NCBI GenBank assembly: GCA_019638675.1
Contig: JAHBTE010000001.1
Location: forward strand, 1,024,605-1,088,604
Direction: 5' to 3'
Length of the DNA: 64,000 bases
From: Fimbriimonadaceae bacterium
GTDB taxonomy: Bacteria > Armatimonadota > Fimbriimonadia > Fimbriimonadales > Fimbriimonadaceae
Shown: positions 43,731-54,190 of the stretch, one piece after another
How the letters are laid out: each line of letters starts with the position of its first letter
Numbering within the stretch: the first letter of the stretch is position 1
The notes under the pieces: generated by a model
What the model was told of the DNA's origin: nothing
What the model saw: only the letters and a program-made list of their open reading frames with translations
Database searches by the model: none
Program-made: the position numbers and the translations under genes

Positions 43731-44606
43731 TCAATCGACCAGCTTGCTACCCATCCGAACAATATCAGCCCAGCGCTCTTTGAGATCGCTGGCTAACGGA
43801 GTTCCGGAGCGGGCTTGCGCAACCAGGCGGCGGTCAACCTGAGTCATGACGATTTGCTCACCGAAATTCTTGGCTTGCACTAAGCATTCTCCGTTAGGAG
43901 CAACGACCTGGCTTCCGCCAGTGAGGCCCTTTCCGCCTTCAAACCCACTCAGCATAGCCATGGCCGCGAAAACACCGTGTTCTTCGCATAGCGACTGAAG
44001 CATCCTGTCGTAACGGATTAAGTTACCGGGTTTATCCGATTGGAAATTCCGAGCCGGGCTGGCTGAGTGAACTAGGATAATTTCGCATCCCGCAACGCAA
44101 AGTAACGTGGAAAGTACGGAGTGCCAAACATCTTCGCAGACCAAGATACCGATTCGTCCAAATTTAGTGTCCACAACGCCGAGTTCTGAGCCTTCTTCAT
44201 GGAACCGGTGCTCATCAAAAACACCATAAGTGGGCAAGAAAATCTTTCGGTACGTGTGCAGTGGGGTCAGCTTCGCACCGTCAAAACTCAGATAGGCGGC
44301 TGAGTTAAATGGTCGGCGAGGATTGGATTCGTAGAATCCAATGGCGATGTCAAACGGTTTGCCCGCACTTTTGAACCGTGGCTCAAGCTCCGCACAAAGT
44401 TCTGCTGTAGTGAGGGATAAGGCGTCTACGCCGCCTTCTAAGACATATCCGGTAGTTGCAGATTCAGGATAGACAAGTAGATCGGCACCCTCGCTAACAG
44501 CTTGCAAAGCGGTTTCCGCCAAATGGTCGAGCGTTGCTTTCAGGTCGCCCTTAGTGGGTTGGAACTGCACACACGCCAACTGAAACTGCTGGATGGAATC
44601 CGCCAT
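43731..44606 (-). CDS. Nitrilase-superfamily carbon-nitrogen hydrolase
   Basis: A 291-residue protein with the Glu-Lys-Cys catalytic triad: DLLVYPESATTGYVLEGG (Glu), HTYRKIFLPTYGVFDE (Lys) and IGILVCEDVWHSVLSTLL (Cys). An NSAAYLSFDG and a late GSQVVAPNGECLV match the superfamily. The YRKIFLPTYGVFDE and VCEDVWH motifs resemble the glutaminase domain of NAD+ synthetase or an omega-amidase-type branch, so the substrate is an amide; which one is unclear. It lies 17 nt after the AddA-like gene, as the last gene of that three-gene minus-strand run. Confidence 0.9.
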   Translation of the reverse strand: MADSIQQFQLACVQFQPTKGDLKATLDHLAETALQAVSEGADLLVYPESATTGYVLEGGVDALSLTTAELCAELEPRFKSAGKPFDIAIGFYESNPRRPFNSAAYLSFDGAKLTPLHTYRKIFLPTYGVFDEHRFHEEGSELGVVDTKFGRIGILVCEDVWHSVLSTLLCVAGCEIILVHSASPARNFQSDKPGNLIRYDRMLQSLCEEHGVFAAMAMLSGFEGGKGLTGGSQVVAPNGECLVQAKNFGEQIVMTQVDRRLVAQARSGTPLASDLKERWADIVRMGSKLVD

Positions 44607-44623: not shown

Positions 44624-46885
44624 CTACCGATTTGATGCCGGGTGATGCTTGATTTTGAACTTAGGATAATCGGCCCTTGGGATTGGACGGAGCAGGGTTT
44701 CGGTAAGCGGGATTTTATTGCCCTTTGCGCTGGGTGGACGCACTCCGACGATCAATCGGTTTTGCGCCCTGGTAAGGGCGACGTAGAGCAATCTGAACTC
44801 CTCGGCAAGCTCACTTTCTGCATTCCGATTGACGATTTCTTGCCAGACGGCATTCGTTCCTTTGATGCATGTAAACGCCATTCCGTTGCGGAAATCTGTG
44901 ATGATGCGGGCTGTGTTGGCGGTGGCTTTTCGAGGAGTGAGGTCATGCCCGTACACAATGACATTCTTGAACTCCAAACCTTTGGATTTATGAATGGTCA
45001 TGATCCGCACGACCGGATCATCTGGATCATGAAGCGGAGCAGTTGGTTCGCGATGCGAAAGCACTTGCAAGTGCCGGAAGCGATCGGCAAACTGCAAAGG
45101 AGTTAAATCTTGATGAGTTGTGGCGATACTGAGAAGCTTTCGCGTATTGGCGATATTGCGTTCACCATTGATTTTTCTTCCCAGGTTCGCCAAATAGGGA
45201 GAATTGGTGAGCGCTCGGTTAATGATTTCGTAAGCTGAGTATCGGTCGCAAAACGCCTTAAGTTCCACAAACCAACTCAGGAAGTTCTCAACTTTCTCTT
45301 TATCTTCTGGGATGAGAGGTTCAAATTCCTCCAGTTGGTTGAAAATTCCAGGTGATTGCCCAAGCTGTACTATTGTATCAAGCGAAACTCCCACATAGGG
45401 ACTGTGAAGTAGACAAGCAAGAACAAAGTCGTTTTCCGGATGCACACAGGCGGTCAAGAGATTTGCCATGTCCCGAGCTTCCATGCGGGTGAAAAGTGAT
45501 TCGCTTGTGCCGCTTGCTTGGTTGGGAATTCCAAGTGCATCCAACGCCCCCTGGATAGAGGTAGCGCTGCTGGAATTGCGAACCAGCACGACGATATCTC
45601 CTGGTGGTTCACCTTGGTCGATCATGGTTTTTACAAAATTAGCCGTGGTTGCCGCGGGATGGTCAGGATGTGATTCGAGAATCTCAACCCCTTCAAAATC
45701 CAAAGGCTCGGTGGGTTGGTGAGCCCCCGGAGCCATAGGCGAATAATGCCCGGCCCAAGTTTTTTCATACAAATGGTTGACAAAATTAATAATTCCAGGA
45801 TGTGAACGGTAGTTGAGTCCAAGCTGGATTGGCTTATCTTGCGCCATAGTCTCAAAAATCTCTTTAATCGAACCTCGGAAGCGGTAAATAGACTGTTGGC
45901 TATCTCCGACTGTAAGGGAATTACCGAGATTCAATGCCGACAGGAAGCCAAACTGGTTAGGGTTAGCATCTTGAGATTCGTCCAGTAAAATCGCTCGGTA
46001 TTGAGACCGGATCCGCTCGGCGAGAGAAGGATGCTCGGTGAGTAACTCAATTGCTTTGCTTTCCAATAATGTGAAATCGTACTTATCAGTACGTGTCATC
46101 TCACGTTCGTACAATTCCCATGTTAGCGAGGCAAGTTGGCAGAGCCCAACCAAAAGGTTTACTTCTTGGTCGAAAACTACTCCGGTTGTATGGCGCTTAT
46201 CTGATTTGCCAAACTGCTTGACCTTCATGCCAAAGCTTAAATCAGGATCAGTCGGCCAGTTTTTGTCATCCAGATACTGCTCCCAGTTCTTTTGTATGGT
46301 TTTAGGGTGGTTGAAATTCTCGCGCAAGTACTGCCAGGTCATGCCAATGTTTCTGGCTGGTTCGATAACTTTGCCAATGACCTGCTCTCGTAGCAACGAA
46401 TCGAGTTCTAAGTAACTGCCCCACTTACGCTTACCGGCCGTAGCTTGGCGATACTGCTTGATTTCATCTTGGTTGGCTTCGTCGGAAGTGAGAACTTGCC
46501 GCAGGCAGAGATCCCACAAACGGTTGCTTTCGTAATCCGCAAGAATTTCAAAATCTGGATTTAATCCTGCCCAAACAGAGTTTTCACGCAAGAGCCGTTC
46601 GTAGAAACTGTGGATGGTTTGGATTGGGCCGGTTTCAGCAAGCTGTGCGGCCTCGAAAAGTTGGGCTTCGCGCAGTTCTTTAACGATGCGGTGTTTCATT
46701 GAGGCCGCCGCTCGATGTGTGTAAGTTACGGCGAGGATTTCTTCAGGTGAAAATCCAGAATCTTTTACATATCTAAGGTAGCGCTGAACTATGACTTCTG
46801 TTTTTCCTGCGCCTGCGGATGCAACCACGACCAAATGATCACGGGGTGAGGTGATTGCTTCTAATTGCTCGTCATTCCACCTCAT
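44624..46885 (-). CDS. UvrD/AddA-like superfamily 1 DNA helicase lacking a nuclease domain
   Basis: A 753-residue SF1A helicase. Motif I is VASAGAGKTEVIVQRYLR (Lys28), Ia AVTYTHRAAASMKHRI, Ib TIHSFYERLL, II AILLDESQDANPNQF, III TVGDSQQSIYRFRGS, IV LGLNYRSHPGIINFVN, V IMTIHKSKGLEFKNVIV, and VI EEFRLLYVALTRAQNRL. These are intact, so it should unwind DNA using ATP. AddA proteins are about 1200 residues with a C-terminal PD-(D/E)XK nuclease; here the chain ends soon after motif VI with PKFKIKHHPASNR. It starts 2 nt after the AddB-like gene, which fits an AddA/AddB-type complex in which neither chain cuts DNA. Confidence 0.88.
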   Translation of the reverse strand: MRWNDEQLEAITSPRDHLVVVASAGAGKTEVIVQRYLRYVKDSGFSPEEILAVTYTHRAAASMKHRIVKELREAQLFEAAQLAETGPIQTIHSFYERLLRENSVWAGLNPDFEILADYESNRLWDLCLRQVLTSDEANQDEIKQYRQATAGKRKWGSYLELDSLLREQVIGKVIEPARNIGMTWQYLRENFNHPKTIQKNWEQYLDDKNWPTDPDLSFGMKVKQFGKSDKRHTTGVVFDQEVNLLVGLCQLASLTWELYEREMTRTDKYDFTLLESKAIELLTEHPSLAERIRSQYRAILLDESQDANPNQFGFLSALNLGNSLTVGDSQQSIYRFRGSIKEIFETMAQDKPIQLGLNYRSHPGIINFVNHLYEKTWAGHYSPMAPGAHQPTEPLDFEGVEILESHPDHPAATTANFVKTMIDQGEPPGDIVVLVRNSSSATSIQGALDALGIPNQASGTSESLFTRMEARDMANLLTACVHPENDFVLACLLHSPYVGVSLDTIVQLGQSPGIFNQLEEFEPLIPEDKEKVENFLSWFVELKAFCDRYSAYEIINRALTNSPYLANLGRKINGERNIANTRKLLSIATTHQDLTPLQFADRFRHLQVLSHREPTAPLHDPDDPVVRIMTIHKSKGLEFKNVIVYGHDLTPRKATANTARIITDFRNGMAFTCIKGTNAVWQEIVNRNAESELAEEFRLLYVALTRAQNRLIVGVRPPSAKGNKIPLTETLLRPIPRADYPKFKIKHHPASNR

Positions 46886-46887
46886 GG

Positions 46888-49779
46888 TTAAATATCCTCG
46901 AATAGCGATTGAGATTCGCCAAACTGGTTGTGGCTACGGCAAAGGTCTCCCAGGGTGCAGCGTGTGCAATGATCGCCAGCAATTGGCACGGCTTCAGCTT
47001 TGGAAAGCCTTGCTCTTGCCTGAGCAATTTCAATCTGTAAGCGGGGCAAGATTCCACTTACTCGGTCATCTTCATCACGCGGTGTGAGGGAAGTGTGAGT
47101 AATTCCTGCGCCAAGCATTCCCCGCGTGAGAAAGCTCCGATCTTTTGTTTTTGTCACCAAGTGACGGTCGCCTTCCAATGTGTCGACCATAAGGCAAGTC
47201 TCCCCACCGGGCTTGCCGAGTGTCATCAAAAGCAAAGTCGCCCACAAGCTACTTTCGATGTCTTTCTGGGCATCATATAGATTCCAAGGGAGATAGGCGC
47301 CGTACAAAAATCCGATCCGCAGATTGTCGTTTTCATACAAACCATCCAGGTGATACTGTAGTTTTATCGGAGGATCACCTTTGAGAATGGCCCGAGTTTC
47401 GCCTTGCTGGCTGGAATAATTTGTCTGCAGTTTGAACTCGTGCAGATTGAGAACATCTCGGGCGAGAAACTCCCGATCTACCCACCCTTCAATAATGCGG
47501 ATAATTGCGTCGTGATAAAGAGTCTGCTCCCAATTATCCAAATGGTGGAGATGATCTTCTAGTTCACTTGCAGCAAGGCCAATTAACGTTCCTTTCGCCG
47601 CAGTTGCTGTCGGTTGCTTGATGAGTTGAGCTTTGCGCGGTAGGGAACGCAGAATACGAATCGGCAGGGAACTATCCGGTGCTTTGAACTCAACTCGGTG
47701 GCTCAAACTAGCTCGGAATGGGCAAGCAGCGGCCTGGGCAAGCTCTCGTACAGGAATAGGTTCACTTAAATCGGGGCGAACCATATCCCGGGTCTTTTCT
47801 TCCTGCAACCGAGGAAGTTCAAAGGAGTCTCGATCTCCGGCAAGTGCGGCTTGCAAGGTGCGGTCAGGCCAGTTTTTACATTTCTCTGCTGGCGGAGTGA
47901 GCTCAGATCGCTTATATGTGTGTTTTCTAACGGGCAACAATACTTCAAGCTCATCTAAATAAAAGGTGGCGATATTATCTCGATCTTCACCCGTTTCGGC
48001 ATGGCTGAAAGTGAGTGATTTTTGCGCTGCACTGCAAAGCGTGATGAATAAACTTCGCTCTTCTGAAGATATTTTTGTAGATAGCGGAAGCGGCGGGAAA
48101 TTAGGCAATGCTTCAGCTAGTAGCCGACGATCTGTATCATCCAATACTGCATCTTGCCGGCGACGTTTAGGCAGTGTGCCTTCCAGCATATTCAGGCAGA
48201 AAAGATGGTCAAATCCAACTAATTGGTTAGGGTTCGTGCACAACTTGACATTTGATTCTTGGTCGTGCCAAATAATTTGTTCGTCTTCCCAAAGCATGGT
48301 TGCCAAACTTAGGAACTCGGCAAATGTAAAGGTTGTGTTGCGATCAGTGGAAAGAGCGGCATCTCGAATTGTGCGCTGCATCAAAGTCCAGGCCTGACTA
48401 TCTCGCGTTTTTGATTCAGGCGGCCCGAGCAGAGCGTGGTCAAGGATAGGTGTATTCGCCCAAAGAGTGTGCAAAAACTGCGACCAAACGCTCAACGTCT
48501 TTGGGCTCGAAATCGCTTGTTCCCGCCACTCAACCAAGTGGTGTAGCCAAGCGTAATCCAAATTCTCCGTGATGACCAGTGCAAACTCCGACCAAGGATC
48601 TTCGTGTTGCGCTTGTAATGCGGTCAAAGATGTCAAGAGTTTCTCAAAATCGGGAGCCGGAACCTGAAAATAGCTGTTGGCCAGCGCAAACCGCAAAGTG
48701 CGAACGTCGTTTGATGCCAGACTTTTTAAAAGCTCCAGCGCAACGGCAACAAAACCGTTGGCATGCAGCGGAGTGGAGTGAGTGCCAGAAAGAGGCAAGC
48801 CCAGGCGTTCGGCGGCAATCGCCAGCAACGGAATATGGTCACCCGAGCCGCGAATGAATATCCCGATTTTATTTGCTGGCACATTATCTTGTAGTAGGTA
48901 CTGAATCTCGCGGATGATCCATTCGCACTCGGTGAGTGTGTCTCCCATTGTGAGCAGGTTCACAGTCACGGGAGAATTACTGAGTTTTGCTCGCCCCGGC
49001 TGAAACAGATTTTCAGTCCACTTTTCGTTTTGAGCGGCTCTGAGTGTCCAGTCTTCAATATCACCAAGCTCCTCTGCCCACGCCAGTTCTCGGACAAACG
49101 CACCTTGCTGATTCGGCCACGCAGCAATGATGCAATCCACTTGTACGCCTTGGCCAGCGAGCCATTTCAGCCAATCGTTGTAAATCGGGCTGGGTTCACC
49201 AGTAAGGATGACCACCAAATGCTTGATCGTGAAATGTCGCTTTTCCGTTTGAGCCAAACAGAATTCAGCACGCTCACTTGCAAATTCACGCCCGTTATCG
49301 TGGCAGAACTGCTCGTAGTTGGGGATCAATTCAGCCAAACCCCGTAGTCTGCCCGCAGTAATTTCATTGTCAATGTGGTCAGCCGCTTGAATCAGATCAT
49401 CAGCCGTGATCTTGTGGTAGCGCAGTTCGGTCAGGGCTTTTGCGAGATTCTTTGCTAAGCCGTATGAATAGCTTGCCGCCCTCAGCGGTGAATCCAGATT
49501 CTGTATTGCGGCGGCCCGCTGAATTAAGTGAATTGCCTGAGGGCCAGTGAGCCTTGGCAGGCCAGTATCCCCGCACATTGCGGCAATTCGACCGATGCAG
49601 CTAGCAAACGGGATGAGTTCTTCTACCGGATGCTCGACCAGCATCTGCTTTGCTGTGTGGAGAGCACTGTCTTCCAAAGCCGTAACAAAACTGCTCGGCG
49701 TCGAAATCTGTTGAAGGGCGTACTTGAGGCCTGCGCCTCCGGGAGGCACGATGACCACTCGAGGTCGTCGTTCTGCCAT
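46888..49779 (-). CDS. AddB-like protein with intact Fe-S cysteines but degenerate nuclease and Walker motifs
   Basis: A 963-residue protein. ATG 49779 avoids overlap with the divergent gene at 49795; the frame is open to 49896. Its plan is AddB-like: an N-terminal helicase-like region, inactive 1A/2A domains and a C-terminal PD-(D/E)XK region. The cysteines of the AddB iron-sulfur staple are present (Cys686 in AACPFR, then C938, C941 and C947 in CTRCTLGDLC) with the same +3/+6 spacing as the final three in B. subtilis AddB. The N-terminal phosphate loop (PPGGAGLKYA) lacks GKT. The nuclease Asp is kept (D812 in LDGLY), but the D/E-x-K strand reads RIGFLYG, so nuclease activity is predicted lost. 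It partners the helicase at 44624. Confidence 0.78.
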   Translation of the reverse strand: MAERRPRVVIVPPGGAGLKYALQQISTPSSFVTALEDSALHTAKQMLVEHPVEELIPFASCIGRIAAMCGDTGLPRLTGPQAIHLIQRAAAIQNLDSPLRAASYSYGLAKNLAKALTELRYHKITADDLIQAADHIDNEITAGRLRGLAELIPNYEQFCHDNGREFASERAEFCLAQTEKRHFTIKHLVVILTGEPSPIYNDWLKWLAGQGVQVDCIIAAWPNQQGAFVRELAWAEELGDIEDWTLRAAQNEKWTENLFQPGRAKLSNSPVTVNLLTMGDTLTECEWIIREIQYLLQDNVPANKIGIFIRGSGDHIPLLAIAAERLGLPLSGTHSTPLHANGFVAVALELLKSLASNDVRTLRFALANSYFQVPAPDFEKLLTSLTALQAQHEDPWSEFALVITENLDYAWLHHLVEWREQAISSPKTLSVWSQFLHTLWANTPILDHALLGPPESKTRDSQAWTLMQRTIRDAALSTDRNTTFTFAEFLSLATMLWEDEQIIWHDQESNVKLCTNPNQLVGFDHLFCLNMLEGTLPKRRRQDAVLDDTDRRLLAEALPNFPPLPLSTKISSEERSLFITLCSAAQKSLTFSHAETGEDRDNIATFYLDELEVLLPVRKHTYKRSELTPPAEKCKNWPDRTLQAALAGDRDSFELPRLQEEKTRDMVRPDLSEPIPVRELAQAAACPFRASLSHRVEFKAPDSSLPIRILRSLPRKAQLIKQPTATAAKGTLIGLAASELEDHLHHLDNWEQTLYHDAIIRIIEGWVDREFLARDVLNLHEFKLQTNYSSQQGETRAILKGDPPIKLQYHLDGLYENDNLRIGFLYGAYLPWNLYDAQKDIESSLWATLLLMTLGKPGGETCLMVDTLEGDRHLVTKTKDRSFLTRGMLGAGITHTSLTPRDEDDRVSGILPRLQIEIAQARARLSKAEAVPIAGDHCTRCTLGDLCRSHNQFGESQSLFEDI

Positions 49780-50400: not shown

Positions 50401-50509
50401 TTTTTAGTACCCGCAAAATTACTATTAACTTTTTCAACTTTTGCCTTCAAAAACATAAAGTAACTCCCGATAGAAATACCAGGGCGGAATAACTTTGCCC
50501 GGAGTTTGG

Positions 50510-52717
50510 ATGAATAGGTTCTTGCGCAAAACGGCTGATCGATCGGCCCGTGATCTCACTAAAGGTTTTGAACTTCGTTCCGCTGGGTCTTCCTTCGCAA
50601 CGGAGTTACAAGCGGCTTTGGGGCATCAGCGGGAACATCGGCACCACATGGCTGAGCCTATATACGAAAAGATTTTGGCGCACGATCCAGAAAACCTTGA
50701 TGCGCTCTACTTACTATCAACAGTTAAACTTGGTCACCAAGAATACGATGAAGCTATTGAGTTACTAAAGCACCTCACTCTGGCACATCCGCAATTTGCT
50801 GAAGCTTGGTCATCATACGGTTCGGCCCTCACAGGACAGGGCGAACTTGAAGAGGCGATGGCGGCCTTTCACCGAGCTTTGGATCTCAATCCGTCTCTTT
50901 CGGATACTCACTATCACCTGGCTCAACTCCATTTTGCGCTCAAAGAATGGCGAAGCGCAGCTGAGCATTTCCGTCTCGCAGTAGGTTACGATCCAAGCCA
51001 CGCTCAGGCTTACAATGAACTTGCAATCTGCTTTTATCACATGCACGAGTTCGATCAGTCAATGGCGGCTTGCCACTCGGCCTTGCTGATTGATAAAGGT
51101 TTTGTTCCAGCTTACAATTCGCTAGGATTGGCTCTTGCCGCCTTGGGTCAAAGCCACAGTGCTGAAGAAGCGTATCGCACGGCTATTCGCCTGAATCCTC
51201 GCTACGCCGAAGCGTACGGGAACCTTGGCAAAACATTTTTAGAACTTGGAAAACCCGCGCAAGCGCTAGAAGCTTGTATTCAGGCGACTCAAATTGACGA
51301 TAACTTGTCGGTTGCTTACTGTACTAGGGGTGAGGCTCTTCGCAGACTCGGTCGCTTAGATGAAGCGATGCAGAGTTGCCACCGCGCGCTCGGAATCGAT
51401 CCAAATATGTCGGATGCCCACAATTGCATCGGACTGATCTATTTGGACTCGAGCATGGTAGATGAATCGGTTCAAGCCTTTAGCCAAGCGCTAGTTCTCG
51501 ATCCCAACAATCGCCAATCGGCCAGCAACATCGTGCAGTCCATGGGTTGTAGCCTAATGGCGGGGCCTGAACTGGTCAAACAAGCGGCGCAGAACTGGTC
51601 AAAAAGATTTGCATTCGGTCAACCGCCAAGATCACCAAAGCCGCCACAGATTCGCCGGTTGGGATTCTTGGTAGGGAAAATCGAGGATACGCCCCAAGGC
51701 TATTGGTTAGAGGCTCTACTGAGTGGTCGTGATGCCGACAGGTGCCAAGTTTATGTTTATTCGAGCGAAGCTACCGACGGCAAACAATCAGAGCGAATTT
51801 CCGAACTTACTGATAAATTCCGACCGATGGTTGGTTTGGATGACCTCACAGTCTCGACAATTATCCGCGAAGACCATATTGATGCTCTTGTTGACCTCAC
51901 TGGGCATGGAGCAAACGGACGACTTGGGGTTCTGGTTCATCACGCCGCTCCTATCCAAGTCGCTTGTGCGACTGCCGGTTCAACTCTCGGCCTTGATTCA
52001 GTCGGCACCTTCCTTGCGGACAAAGAGGTTGTCCCGCAAGGCGGAGAAGCATGGCTTACAGAAAAAGTCTTGCGGCTGAGTCGCTCGATTTACGGATTCG
52101 TTCAGCCAGAACTGGAAACGCCGCTTTCCGCTCCACCTTGCACTAAGGGTGAGCCTTTCACATTCGGAAGTTTTAACCAGACTCGTAAGCTAAACAAGCT
52201 GGTTATCGAAGTCTGGGCAGATATTCTACGCGCTACGCCGGGTAGTCGGCTCTTGATCAAGAATCGAACTTTAGCTTCGGGCAGTTTGCGAAGGCAGTAT
52301 CTTGCTTGGTTCAAGAATCTGGGAATAGATACCGACCGAATTATTTTCCGCCAAGCTGGTGGACGAGTCGCCCACTTTGCGAGCTTCAATCAGGTGGATG
52401 TAAGCCTAGATCCGTTCCCATCATCTGGATCCATCACGATTATGGAATCACTTTGGATGGGAGTTCCAGTGATCAGTTTGAACCAAGCAGGATTAGGTGC
52501 TGGCTCTAGTCGGAGCATTTTGCAAGCAGTGGGCTACCAGCAATGGATCGCCCGAGATAGAAACGCTTATGTTGAGCAGGCAGTGGCATTCTTCAAAAAC
52601 CACCAAGAGCTTGAGGATTTACGATGTTCGCTTCGGAACCGGATGATCCTCAGCCCGATCTGTGAAACGAAAGAGCTATTCCGTGAGCTTGTGGATGCAC
52701 TCGAAGATTACGCTTAA
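50510..52717 (+). CDS. TPR-GT41 glycosyltransferase (SPINDLY/OGT-like)
   Basis: A 735-residue protein starting at ATG 50510 (GGAG at 50501-50504). Residues about 40-350 form roughly nine tetratricopeptide repeats (for example AEAYGNLGKTFLELGKPAQA and SDAHNCIGLIYLDSSMVDES). Residues about 380-735 form the GT41 catalytic region: IDALVDLTGHGANGRLGVLV, APIQVACATAGSTLGLDSVG, PFTFGSFNQTRKLNKLVIEV, LLIKNRTLASGSLRRQYLAW, SFNQVDVSLDPFPSSGSITI, ESLWMGVPVISLNQAGLG. The HAPIQ motif and the late DP-F-GSITI pocket match OGT. It probably attaches GlcNAc or fucose to Ser/Thr of proteins. It is convergent with flagellin, a likely substrate. Confidence 0.9.
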   Translation: MNRFLRKTADRSARDLTKGFELRSAGSSFATELQAALGHQREHRHHMAEPIYEKILAHDPENLDALYLLSTVKLGHQEYDEAIELLKHLTLAHPQFAEAWSSYGSALTGQGELEEAMAAFHRALDLNPSLSDTHYHLAQLHFALKEWRSAAEHFRLAVGYDPSHAQAYNELAICFYHMHEFDQSMAACHSALLIDKGFVPAYNSLGLALAALGQSHSAEEAYRTAIRLNPRYAEAYGNLGKTFLELGKPAQALEACIQATQIDDNLSVAYCTRGEALRRLGRLDEAMQSCHRALGIDPNMSDAHNCIGLIYLDSSMVDESVQAFSQALVLDPNNRQSASNIVQSMGCSLMAGPELVKQAAQNWSKRFAFGQPPRSPKPPQIRRLGFLVGKIEDTPQGYWLEALLSGRDADRCQVYVYSSEATDGKQSERISELTDKFRPMVGLDDLTVSTIIREDHIDALVDLTGHGANGRLGVLVHHAAPIQVACATAGSTLGLDSVGTFLADKEVVPQGGEAWLTEKVLRLSRSIYGFVQPELETPLSAPPCTKGEPFTFGSFNQTRKLNKLVIEVWADILRATPGSRLLIKNRTLASGSLRRQYLAWFKNLGIDTDRIIFRQAGGRVAHFASFNQVDVSLDPFPSSGSITIMESLWMGVPVISLNQAGLGAGSSRSILQAVGYQQWIARDRNAYVEQAVAFFKNHQELEDLRCSLRNRMILSPICETKELFRELVDALEDYA

Positions 52718-52786: not shown

Positions 52787-54190
52787 TTATCGGAGAAGTG
52801 AAAGAACTGATTGTGGTGCTTGGTTTGCTTGAGCCAGCATCGAGAGACCGGATTGTTGAAGGATTTGCAACTTGGTGTAGTTGGTCATTTCTTCTGCAAC
52901 GTCGATTTCTCGGATTGAGCTTTCGGTTGCAGCGAGGTTTTCCTTCGCAATACCGAGGCTGCGAACGTTGGACTCAAGGGTGTTCTTCATGAACGAACCG
53001 ATCTTGCCTCGAGCATCAGCAACCTTAGAGATCGCTGCGTCGATTGCATTCATCGCACCGCTCATGTCGGTACCGGAGATGTCGCTGTTCGAAGCGGTGA
53101 AGCCAAGAGCAGCTTGTCCGAAGTTACCGAGCGAAAGGCTAGCGGTTTGACCTGCGTTTCCACCGATTTGGAAGCTAGCTGCTCCGCTGTCGATTTGGAT
53201 AGCGTTGGTCAAGGTTGCAACAGCGTTTCCAGCAACTCGAAGATTAACGGTGTTACCATCAGCATCCTTGAGTTCAAGACCCTTACCCTTGTTGAAGGTT
53301 GAAGTGAAGGTGCTTGTACCATCGGTGTAGCTAACAGTAGCAACAGCATCCACACCAGCAGCGCCGACTACGCCAGCAGCGGACTGGATGATGCCGTTTG
53401 CATCAACGAGGTCGATCCGGTTAGCACTACCATATCCGGTTTGGGTCAGAACAATGTTGTTCGTACCGTTAACGCTAGCTTGGACACCAGTTTCAGCGGT
53501 TGCAGCGTTCAGCTGAGCCACCAATTGGTCTCGAGTTGTGGTCGAATCGGTTGAGAAGGACTTGCCGTTCAGAGTAAACGAACCAGCACCAACTGCAGTT
53601 GCACCAGTAGCGATTGCTCGAGTACCAGTGTGGCTTGCAATGGTAGCAGCCGTGGTCACGTCTACGTCGATAGCGTCAGCTGCGGTTACAGCACCGAGGC
53701 CGATTTTGCCGCCGAACGAAGCGCTAGCAATAGCGGTACCGGTGATAACGCTAGCTCGTGTACCAGCAGAACCGTTCAAAAGCTTTTTGGTACCGAAAGC
53801 AGTGTTAGAAGCAATTCGGTCGATAGACGCGAGGATGCTGTTCAACTGAGTTTGGTTAGCTTGCTTTTGGGTTGAGTCGAGCGTACCGTTACCGTTGGCA
53901 ACAGCCAAGGATCGAGCATCGCGAAGCAGTCGGTTGACTTCATCAAGACCACCTTCAGCGGTTTTGGAGAAGTTCAGGGCGTCTTGGTTGTTACGAAGAG
54001 CTTGATCAATACCGCTCAACTGTGCGCGGTAGCTTTCTGAAGCGATAAGACCTGATGGGTCATCAGCGCCGCTGTTGATTCGTAAACCCGTTGAGAGCCG
54101 AGTCGTAGATTTGCTCGCTTCCATCCCGGTCATACCGAGGTTGCGAAGCGCGTTCATTGCATTGATGTTAGTGTTGATTCGAAACGACAT
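52787..54190 (-). CDS. fliC: Flagellin
   Basis: A 467-residue flagellin with the conserved D0/D1 ends: SFRINTNINAMNALRNLGMT, STRLSTGLRINSGADDPSGL, SYRAQLSGIDQALRNNQDAL at the N-terminus, and AISKVADARGKIGSFMKNTL, LAATESSIREIDVAEEMTNY, QILQQSGLSMLAQANQAPQS, VLSLLR at the C-terminus. The central 250 residues (D2/D3 region) are Ala, Thr, Ser and Gly rich, with many potential O-glycosylation sites and no cysteine. The message has a 5' leader with a hairpin presenting GGA and a GGAAG ribosome-binding site. The convergent neighbour encodes a GT41 glycosyltransferase. No other flagellar genes are in the window. Confidence 0.97.
   Translation of the reverse strand: MSFRINTNINAMNALRNLGMTGMEASKSTTRLSTGLRINSGADDPSGLIASESYRAQLSGIDQALRNNQDALNFSKTAEGGLDEVNRLLRDARSLAVANGNGTLDSTQKQANQTQLNSILASIDRIASNTAFGTKKLLNGSAGTRASVITGTAIASASFGGKIGLGAVTAADAIDVDVTTAATIASHTGTRAIATGATAVGAGSFTLNGKSFSTDSTTTRDQLVAQLNAATAETGVQASVNGTNNIVLTQTGYGSANRIDLVDANGIIQSAAGVVGAAGVDAVATVSYTDGTSTFTSTFNKGKGLELKDADGNTVNLRVAGNAVATLTNAIQIDSGAASFQIGGNAGQTASLSLGNFGQAALGFTASNSDISGTDMSGAMNAIDAAISKVADARGKIGSFMKNTLESNVRSLGIAKENLAATESSIREIDVAEEMTNYTKLQILQQSGLSMLAQANQAPQSVLSLLR

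Follow-up and report, generated by a model that had tools for sequence, protein, structure and literature searches.

AddA and AddB homologues kept under selection after the loss of both nuclease sites in a clade of Armatimonadota

AddAB and RecBCD are the textbook fused helicase-nuclease resection machines, and control of their nuclease at Chi is central to how they are understood. Two genes in a Fimbriimonadaceae genome raise the question of what remains of such a machine when neither subunit appears able to cut. The genes lie in a 64,000-nucleotide stretch of contig JAHBTE010000001.1, referred to here as the window. A preliminary description of the window, made from its letters alone, proposed that this AddA/AddB-like pair is either a conserved motor that hands unwound DNA to another nuclease or a repair or defence complex of a new kind. 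The coordinates, protein lengths and residue claims of that description all hold on re-translation (Table 1). We compared the genome of the window with 40 relatives (41 genomes in total) and surveyed 161 genomes of the phylum with a profile of intact AddB, retrieving the loci and their AddA matches.

Table 1. Features of the addB-addA locus, in window positions, and the solo nuclease gene, which lies outside the window
Feature	Position	Strand	Remarks
addB homologue, 963 aa	46888..49779	(-)	Helicase-like (Chi-reader-type) N-terminal part and nuclease-like C-terminal domain
addA homologue, 753 aa	44624..46885	(-)	SF1 UvrD/RecB-type helicase; ends 46 residues past motif VI
AddB residues 669-963, PD-(D/E)XK nuclease-like domain with dead active site	46891..47775	(-)	From profile alignment
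Fe-S cysteine 1, C686	47722..47724	(-)	Present in 25/25 f1 and 7/7 f5
Fe-S cysteines 2-4, C938, C941, C947	46939..46968	(-)	Present in 31/32 f1/f5 genomes; the exception is an assembly gap
D812, sole metal-site residue left in the AddB nuclease domain	47344..47346	(-)	Aligns with D837 of an intact f2 protein
Lost D/E-x-K position, L825-Y826-G827	47299..47307	(-)	D852/K854 of an intact f2 protein align with L825/G827
Carbon-nitrogen hydrolase (nitrilase family), third gene of the f1 addB-addA operon	43731..44606	(-)	PF00795, 3.4e-26
Solo Fe-S PD-(D/E)XK nuclease, 258 residues	L252:2227-3000 (G000:C1:1842726-1843499)		Outside the window

Judged by profile matches, the two genes, which are separated by 2 bases, are AddA and AddB homologues by descent. 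AddA matches the Pfam families UvrD-helicase (4.6e-54) and UvrD_C (2.5e-30), and its PDB matches are AddA, RecB and PcrA/UvrD chains. The single AddB sequence gave no match to solved structures and almost none in Pfam, and an AlphaFold model of residues 655-963 from the single sequence reached a pLDDT of 31. We replaced the single-sequence structure search with a profile of 34 relatives, which matches B. subtilis AddB (3u44_B) over most of its length with an E value of 4.3e-46. Both proteins score far under the NCBIfam equivalog cut-offs, AddA reaching 224 bits in the addA model against a cut-off of 708. RecC has no Fe-S cysteines and the RecB nuclease is active. We rejected RecBCD as the identity of the pair, as the helicase subunit here carries no nuclease, AddB has the Fe-S cysteines and the recB equivalog score is far below its cut-off.

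The motor of AddA is intact. The SF1 motifs, described earlier as complete, can all be read in the sequence (SAGAGKT at 23-29, DESQD at 302-306, QQSIYRFRG, MTIHKSKGLEF at 629-639 and VALTRA at 702-707) and are conserved in 37 relatives, with A22, G25, G27, K28, T29, D302, E303, Q305, D306, R360, R698 and others invariant in the alignment. With only 46 residues after motif VI, AddA lacks the RecB-type nuclease domain, in agreement with the preliminary description that the protein stops before a C-terminal PD-(D/E)XK domain. Short tails of 36-97 residues are found in families f1 (that of the window), f2 to f6, f8, f12 and f28. Tails of 289-389 residues with a nuclease motif are found in f10, f13, f14, f19, f21, f24, f27, f30, f35, f38 and f40; the comparison leaves out f25, and in f34 a simple motif pattern gave no match within a 369-residue tail. 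Nearly all outgroup AddA tails carry the D..DYK nuclease motif.

AddB keeps its nuclease-like domain with the active site destroyed. The four cysteines of the Fe-S staple noted in the preliminary description (C686, C938, C941 and C947) are all in place and persist in the homologues (Table 1). Also as described, the first nuclease aspartate, D812, is retained and the D/E-x-K strand reads RIGFLYG; in the alignment, L825 occupies the place of D/E and G827 that of K. R715 stands in for the GxxH histidine and W846 for the QxxxY glutamine. The C-termini of f2, f3 and f4 carry an intact GxIDRVD..DYK motif, whereas in f1 (25 genomes) and f5 (7 genomes) this motif is destroyed. Among the listed states, neither the D/E residue nor the K residue occurs in any of the 32 f1 and f5 genomes, while each is present in 9/9 genomes of f2-f4 and 20/22 outgroups; for the GxxH histidine the listed states give 0/32, 9/9 and 21/22. 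A scripted check found no f1 or f5 AddB with both D/E and K. The preliminary description had asked whether the loss of E/D-x-K is conserved among homologues, and it is: being common to all 32 f1 and f5 genomes and absent from the sister families, it is more than chance. Profiles of 29 dead and 29 intact domains align end to end (hhalign probability 99.8, E 2.5e-29). An intact D..D/E-x-K set elsewhere in AddB, named at the outset as the observation that would count against the reading, was looked for by this profile-profile alignment of the whole domain, which placed none.

The preliminary description also pointed to a phosphate loop in AddB that lacks GKT. The absence holds, and the first 120 residues contain no GxxxxGK[ST] motif, but it is not specific. 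Most AddBs of f2, with their intact nuclease, lack Walker A too, and the motor of AddAB is the other subunit, so the missing loop says nothing about the nuclease. We therefore rejected it as part of the nuclease-loss story. Across the families, Walker A is present in f4, f6, f28 and most of f12, and has degenerated, independently of the nuclease, in f1, f5 and most of f2.

AddA was matched in 41/41 genomes and AddB in 40, with the AddB of the 41st found as a partial ORF. In the AddA tree, the short-tail forms lie on one side of a branch with 99% SH-aLRT support, and f1 and f5 form a clade inside them with 100%. The AddB tree, built with the nuclease domain excluded, gives the f1+f5 clade 100% support as well, with long branches affecting its deeper placement. 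From the tail lengths and the two trees, it appears most simply that the AddA nuclease domain was lost first, once, in an ancestor shared by nine or more families, and that the AddB site would then have been lost once, in the ancestor of f1 and f5. Most families with a short AddA tail keep an intact AddB nuclease, which is there the sole nuclease of the complex. In family f12 the AddB site may have been lost again, independently, with DYK changed to DYT in G062 (L184) and HYR in G186 (L181). The site also appears dead in G164 (L200) and G190 (L199), both of which have a second AddAB.

The dead AddB domain is under strong purifying selection. Between the window and its closest relative, G003, dN/dS (calculated from the listed dN and dS values) is 0.018 for the dead domain, 0.034 for the helicase-like part of AddB and 0.018 for AddA. 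The values for G005 against G006 are 0.035, 0.064 and 0.033. In both pairs the dead domain thus falls below the helicase-like part of the same protein. Over longer timescales, conservation of the domain relative to the rest of AddB is 0.78 in f1 and 0.95 in f5, compared to 1.01-1.17 for intact domains. This pattern fits a domain that has lost catalysis and kept its structure. The loss of the nuclease is neither decay nor an oddity of one strain.

Known systems suggest what such a complex could do. B. subtilis AddAB binds the DNA end tightly, one AddA motor unwinds the duplex and each strand passes a nuclease domain on its way out (PMC4027173); to bind broken DNA, the enzyme requires its Fe-S cluster (Yeeles 2009, cited in PMC4027173). 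The pair in the window shares with this type of AddAB (RexAB) the SF1 motor of AddA, the helicase-like N-terminus and Fe-S C-terminal domain of AddB and the addB-addA operon. It differs in having zero nucleases where the B. subtilis type has two, as the AddA domain and the AddB site are both missing. In RecBCD, the partner subunit RecC likewise carries an inactivated nuclease-like domain that is kept in a structural or strand-guiding role (PMC1185551). Unlike in RecBCD, the motor subunit here has no nuclease. The E. coli recB1080 mutant is a helicase without a nuclease, in which RecJ degrades the 5′ strand, RecFOR loads RecA and recombination is supported (PMC3375238).

We consider it probable, on comparative grounds, that f1 and f5 carry a nuclease-free derivative of AddAB, a natural equivalent of recB1080, with resection of the 5′ strand performed in trans by RecJ and/or a solo nuclease described below. 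The two subunits would form a complex in which AddB uses its catalytically dead, Fe-S-stapled domain to hold the end of a broken duplex, and guides the strands. With ATP, AddA would unwind the duplex by pulling on the 3′-ended strand, and no part of the complex would cut. Once unwound, the 5′ strand would be removed by RecJ, by the solo Fe-S PD-(D/E)XK nuclease or by both, and RecA would be loaded onto the 3′ strand via RecF/O/R. The argument for leaving the cutting to another enzyme is that both cutting sites are lost while the motor and the DNA-gripping parts are kept. The comparative data, with an ordered loss and purifying selection on the motor and the Fe-S domain, favour the conserved helicase-only version of the preliminary description, in which a hand-off to another nuclease would follow. 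The RecB1080CD enzyme differs in being a laboratory point mutant of a single site with the domain still present, and E. coli cells carrying recB1080 have a lower fitness than the wild type (PMC3375238), whereas the state seen here is fixed over many genera. Given this cost, a fixed nuclease-free state must have been compensated somehow.

The candidates for a nuclease in trans come from the rest of the genome, which is 98% complete. It encodes only two proteins of the UvrD family, the AddA and a PcrA/UvrD-like one, and we found no other AddA/RecB-type helicase-nuclease in it. Two other f1 genomes, G018 (L269, G018:C17) and G015 (L270, G015:C42), have an additional large helicase-nuclease with PDDEXK_1 matches that was possibly acquired. 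The window's genome has one strong PDDEXK_1 protein, the solo Fe-S-type nuclease of Table 1, with motifs GRVDRID..IIDYKSG, four cysteines, GxxH and Q. RecJ and RecO are present in 41/41 genomes, and RecF is above the cut-off in 37/41. Families f2-f4, whose AddB site is intact, have RecJ, RecO and the solo nuclease too, so the presence of these proteins does not set f1 and f5 apart. SbcD gave no match in the genome of the window, and we rejected SbcCD as a substitute nuclease there. Many f1 genomes also gave no SbcD match, and weak matches were seen in most of f5 and in f2.

The solo nuclease could instead be a stably bound third subunit that took the place of the AddA nuclease domain first and of the AddB site next, leaving the complex a helicase-nuclease. 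PDDEXK_1 matches occur in 41/41 genomes, mostly to a solo protein of about 250-300 residues, and the clade without an AddA nuclease has the solo orthologue in 12/12 tested genomes, vs 2/19 outgroup genomes. Its H-D-D-K set and four cysteines are intact in 20/20 f1 and f5 sequences read, in the same genomes where the AddB site is dead. A Fisher test on the orthologue counts gives 6e-7 with related genomes treated as independent, and for this reason the co-occurrence amounts to one clade-level association; the contrast between clades reflects one or two evolutionary events. In addition, the solo gene is unlinked to addBA, and the orthologue also occurs in G168 (f40) and G136 (f38), both of which have a full-length AddA. 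These points make a third subunit doubtful. It is also unlikely that the gene is a split-off AddA nuclease domain, as its product has Fe-S cysteines and scores best against AddB/Cas4-type domains.

It is less likely still that AddAB no longer resects at all and serves as a stalled-fork helicase or anti-recombinase, with breaks resected by RecJ/RecFOR and another helicase. The presence of RecJ, RecO and RecF means that most of a second presynaptic pathway exists. However, the Fe-S end-binding domain is kept under strong purifying selection, and most f1 and f5 genomes read have addA next to addB, as expected of an end-binding, unwinding complex.

PD-(D/E)XK sites can migrate, and AddB might then be a cryptic nuclease whose active site has been rearranged to use D812, which is kept in the species group of the window (10/25 f1 genomes) and in 7/7 f5 genomes, and other residues. 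Several observations make this very improbable. D812 is missing from the other 15 of 25 f1 genomes, and the AddB of the window retains none of the GxxH histidine, D/E, K and Q. The sole near-invariant acidic or lysine position in the domain across f1-f5 is E770, which is also found in intact AddBs, and relative conservation of the domain has fallen from the intact range to its f1 value. Slow pseudogenisation, to which that same lower conservation in f1 might point, can be set aside almost entirely, since the genes have no internal stops in f1 and f5 genomes, dN/dS is 0.02-0.06 for all parts and the helicase motifs are conserved.

Parts of this picture are already known from other bacteria. The dead partner nuclease has its precedent in RecC. 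In AddA of isopod Wolbachia, a premature stop removes the nuclease domain (PMC4224334), a natural loss like the one seen here. The passages of that source on AddA describe a recent event in a few endosymbiont strains and report no loss of the AddB nuclease site. The open-access literature searched yielded no description of an AddAB that is nuclease-free in nature, or that has become fixed in this form in a clade, and an earlier mention may exist. That selection maintains the rest of the complex in a clade without either nuclease indicates that a motor with end binding is worth keeping by itself. It is tempting to speculate, as a tentative possibility, that the resection machine has been split between an AddAB that acts only as a helicase and a solo Fe-S nuclease that cuts in trans, a modular arrangement as in eukaryotes (BLM/Sgs1 with Dna2 or Exo1). 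The clade offers a natural system for asking whether bacterial resection can be modular, with the sister families that have an intact AddB as a ready-made control. It also raises the questions of how such cells handle invading linear DNA without degradation by AddAB and what Chi means when there is no nuclease to switch.

Finally, the other proposal of the preliminary description, a defence complex of a new kind, finds no support. AddB has no match in PADLOC, AddA has only generic UvrD/GajB matches, the pair is near-universal in relatives and no defence genes were seen beside addBA among the neighbourhoods read. Gabija and other UvrD-based defence systems were rejected too, with AddA being a generic UvrD match and its partner AddB rather than GajA. 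About 30 genomes showed no conserved nuclease next to addBA; the neighbours are the nitrilase in f1 and, ahead of addB in f5, a transporter that by reading is a cation-diffusion facilitator. The nitrilase gene follows addA in 19 sampled genomes, with the addB-addA-nitrilase order conserved in f1, and it is probably outside AddAB function. Elsewhere in the window, a flagellin-like gene (50495-52717, plus strand) is convergent with a gene for a TPR protein (52787-54190, minus strand) that by reading resembles a glycosyltransferase of the O-GlcNAc-transferase type, possibly forming a flagellin glycosylation pair.
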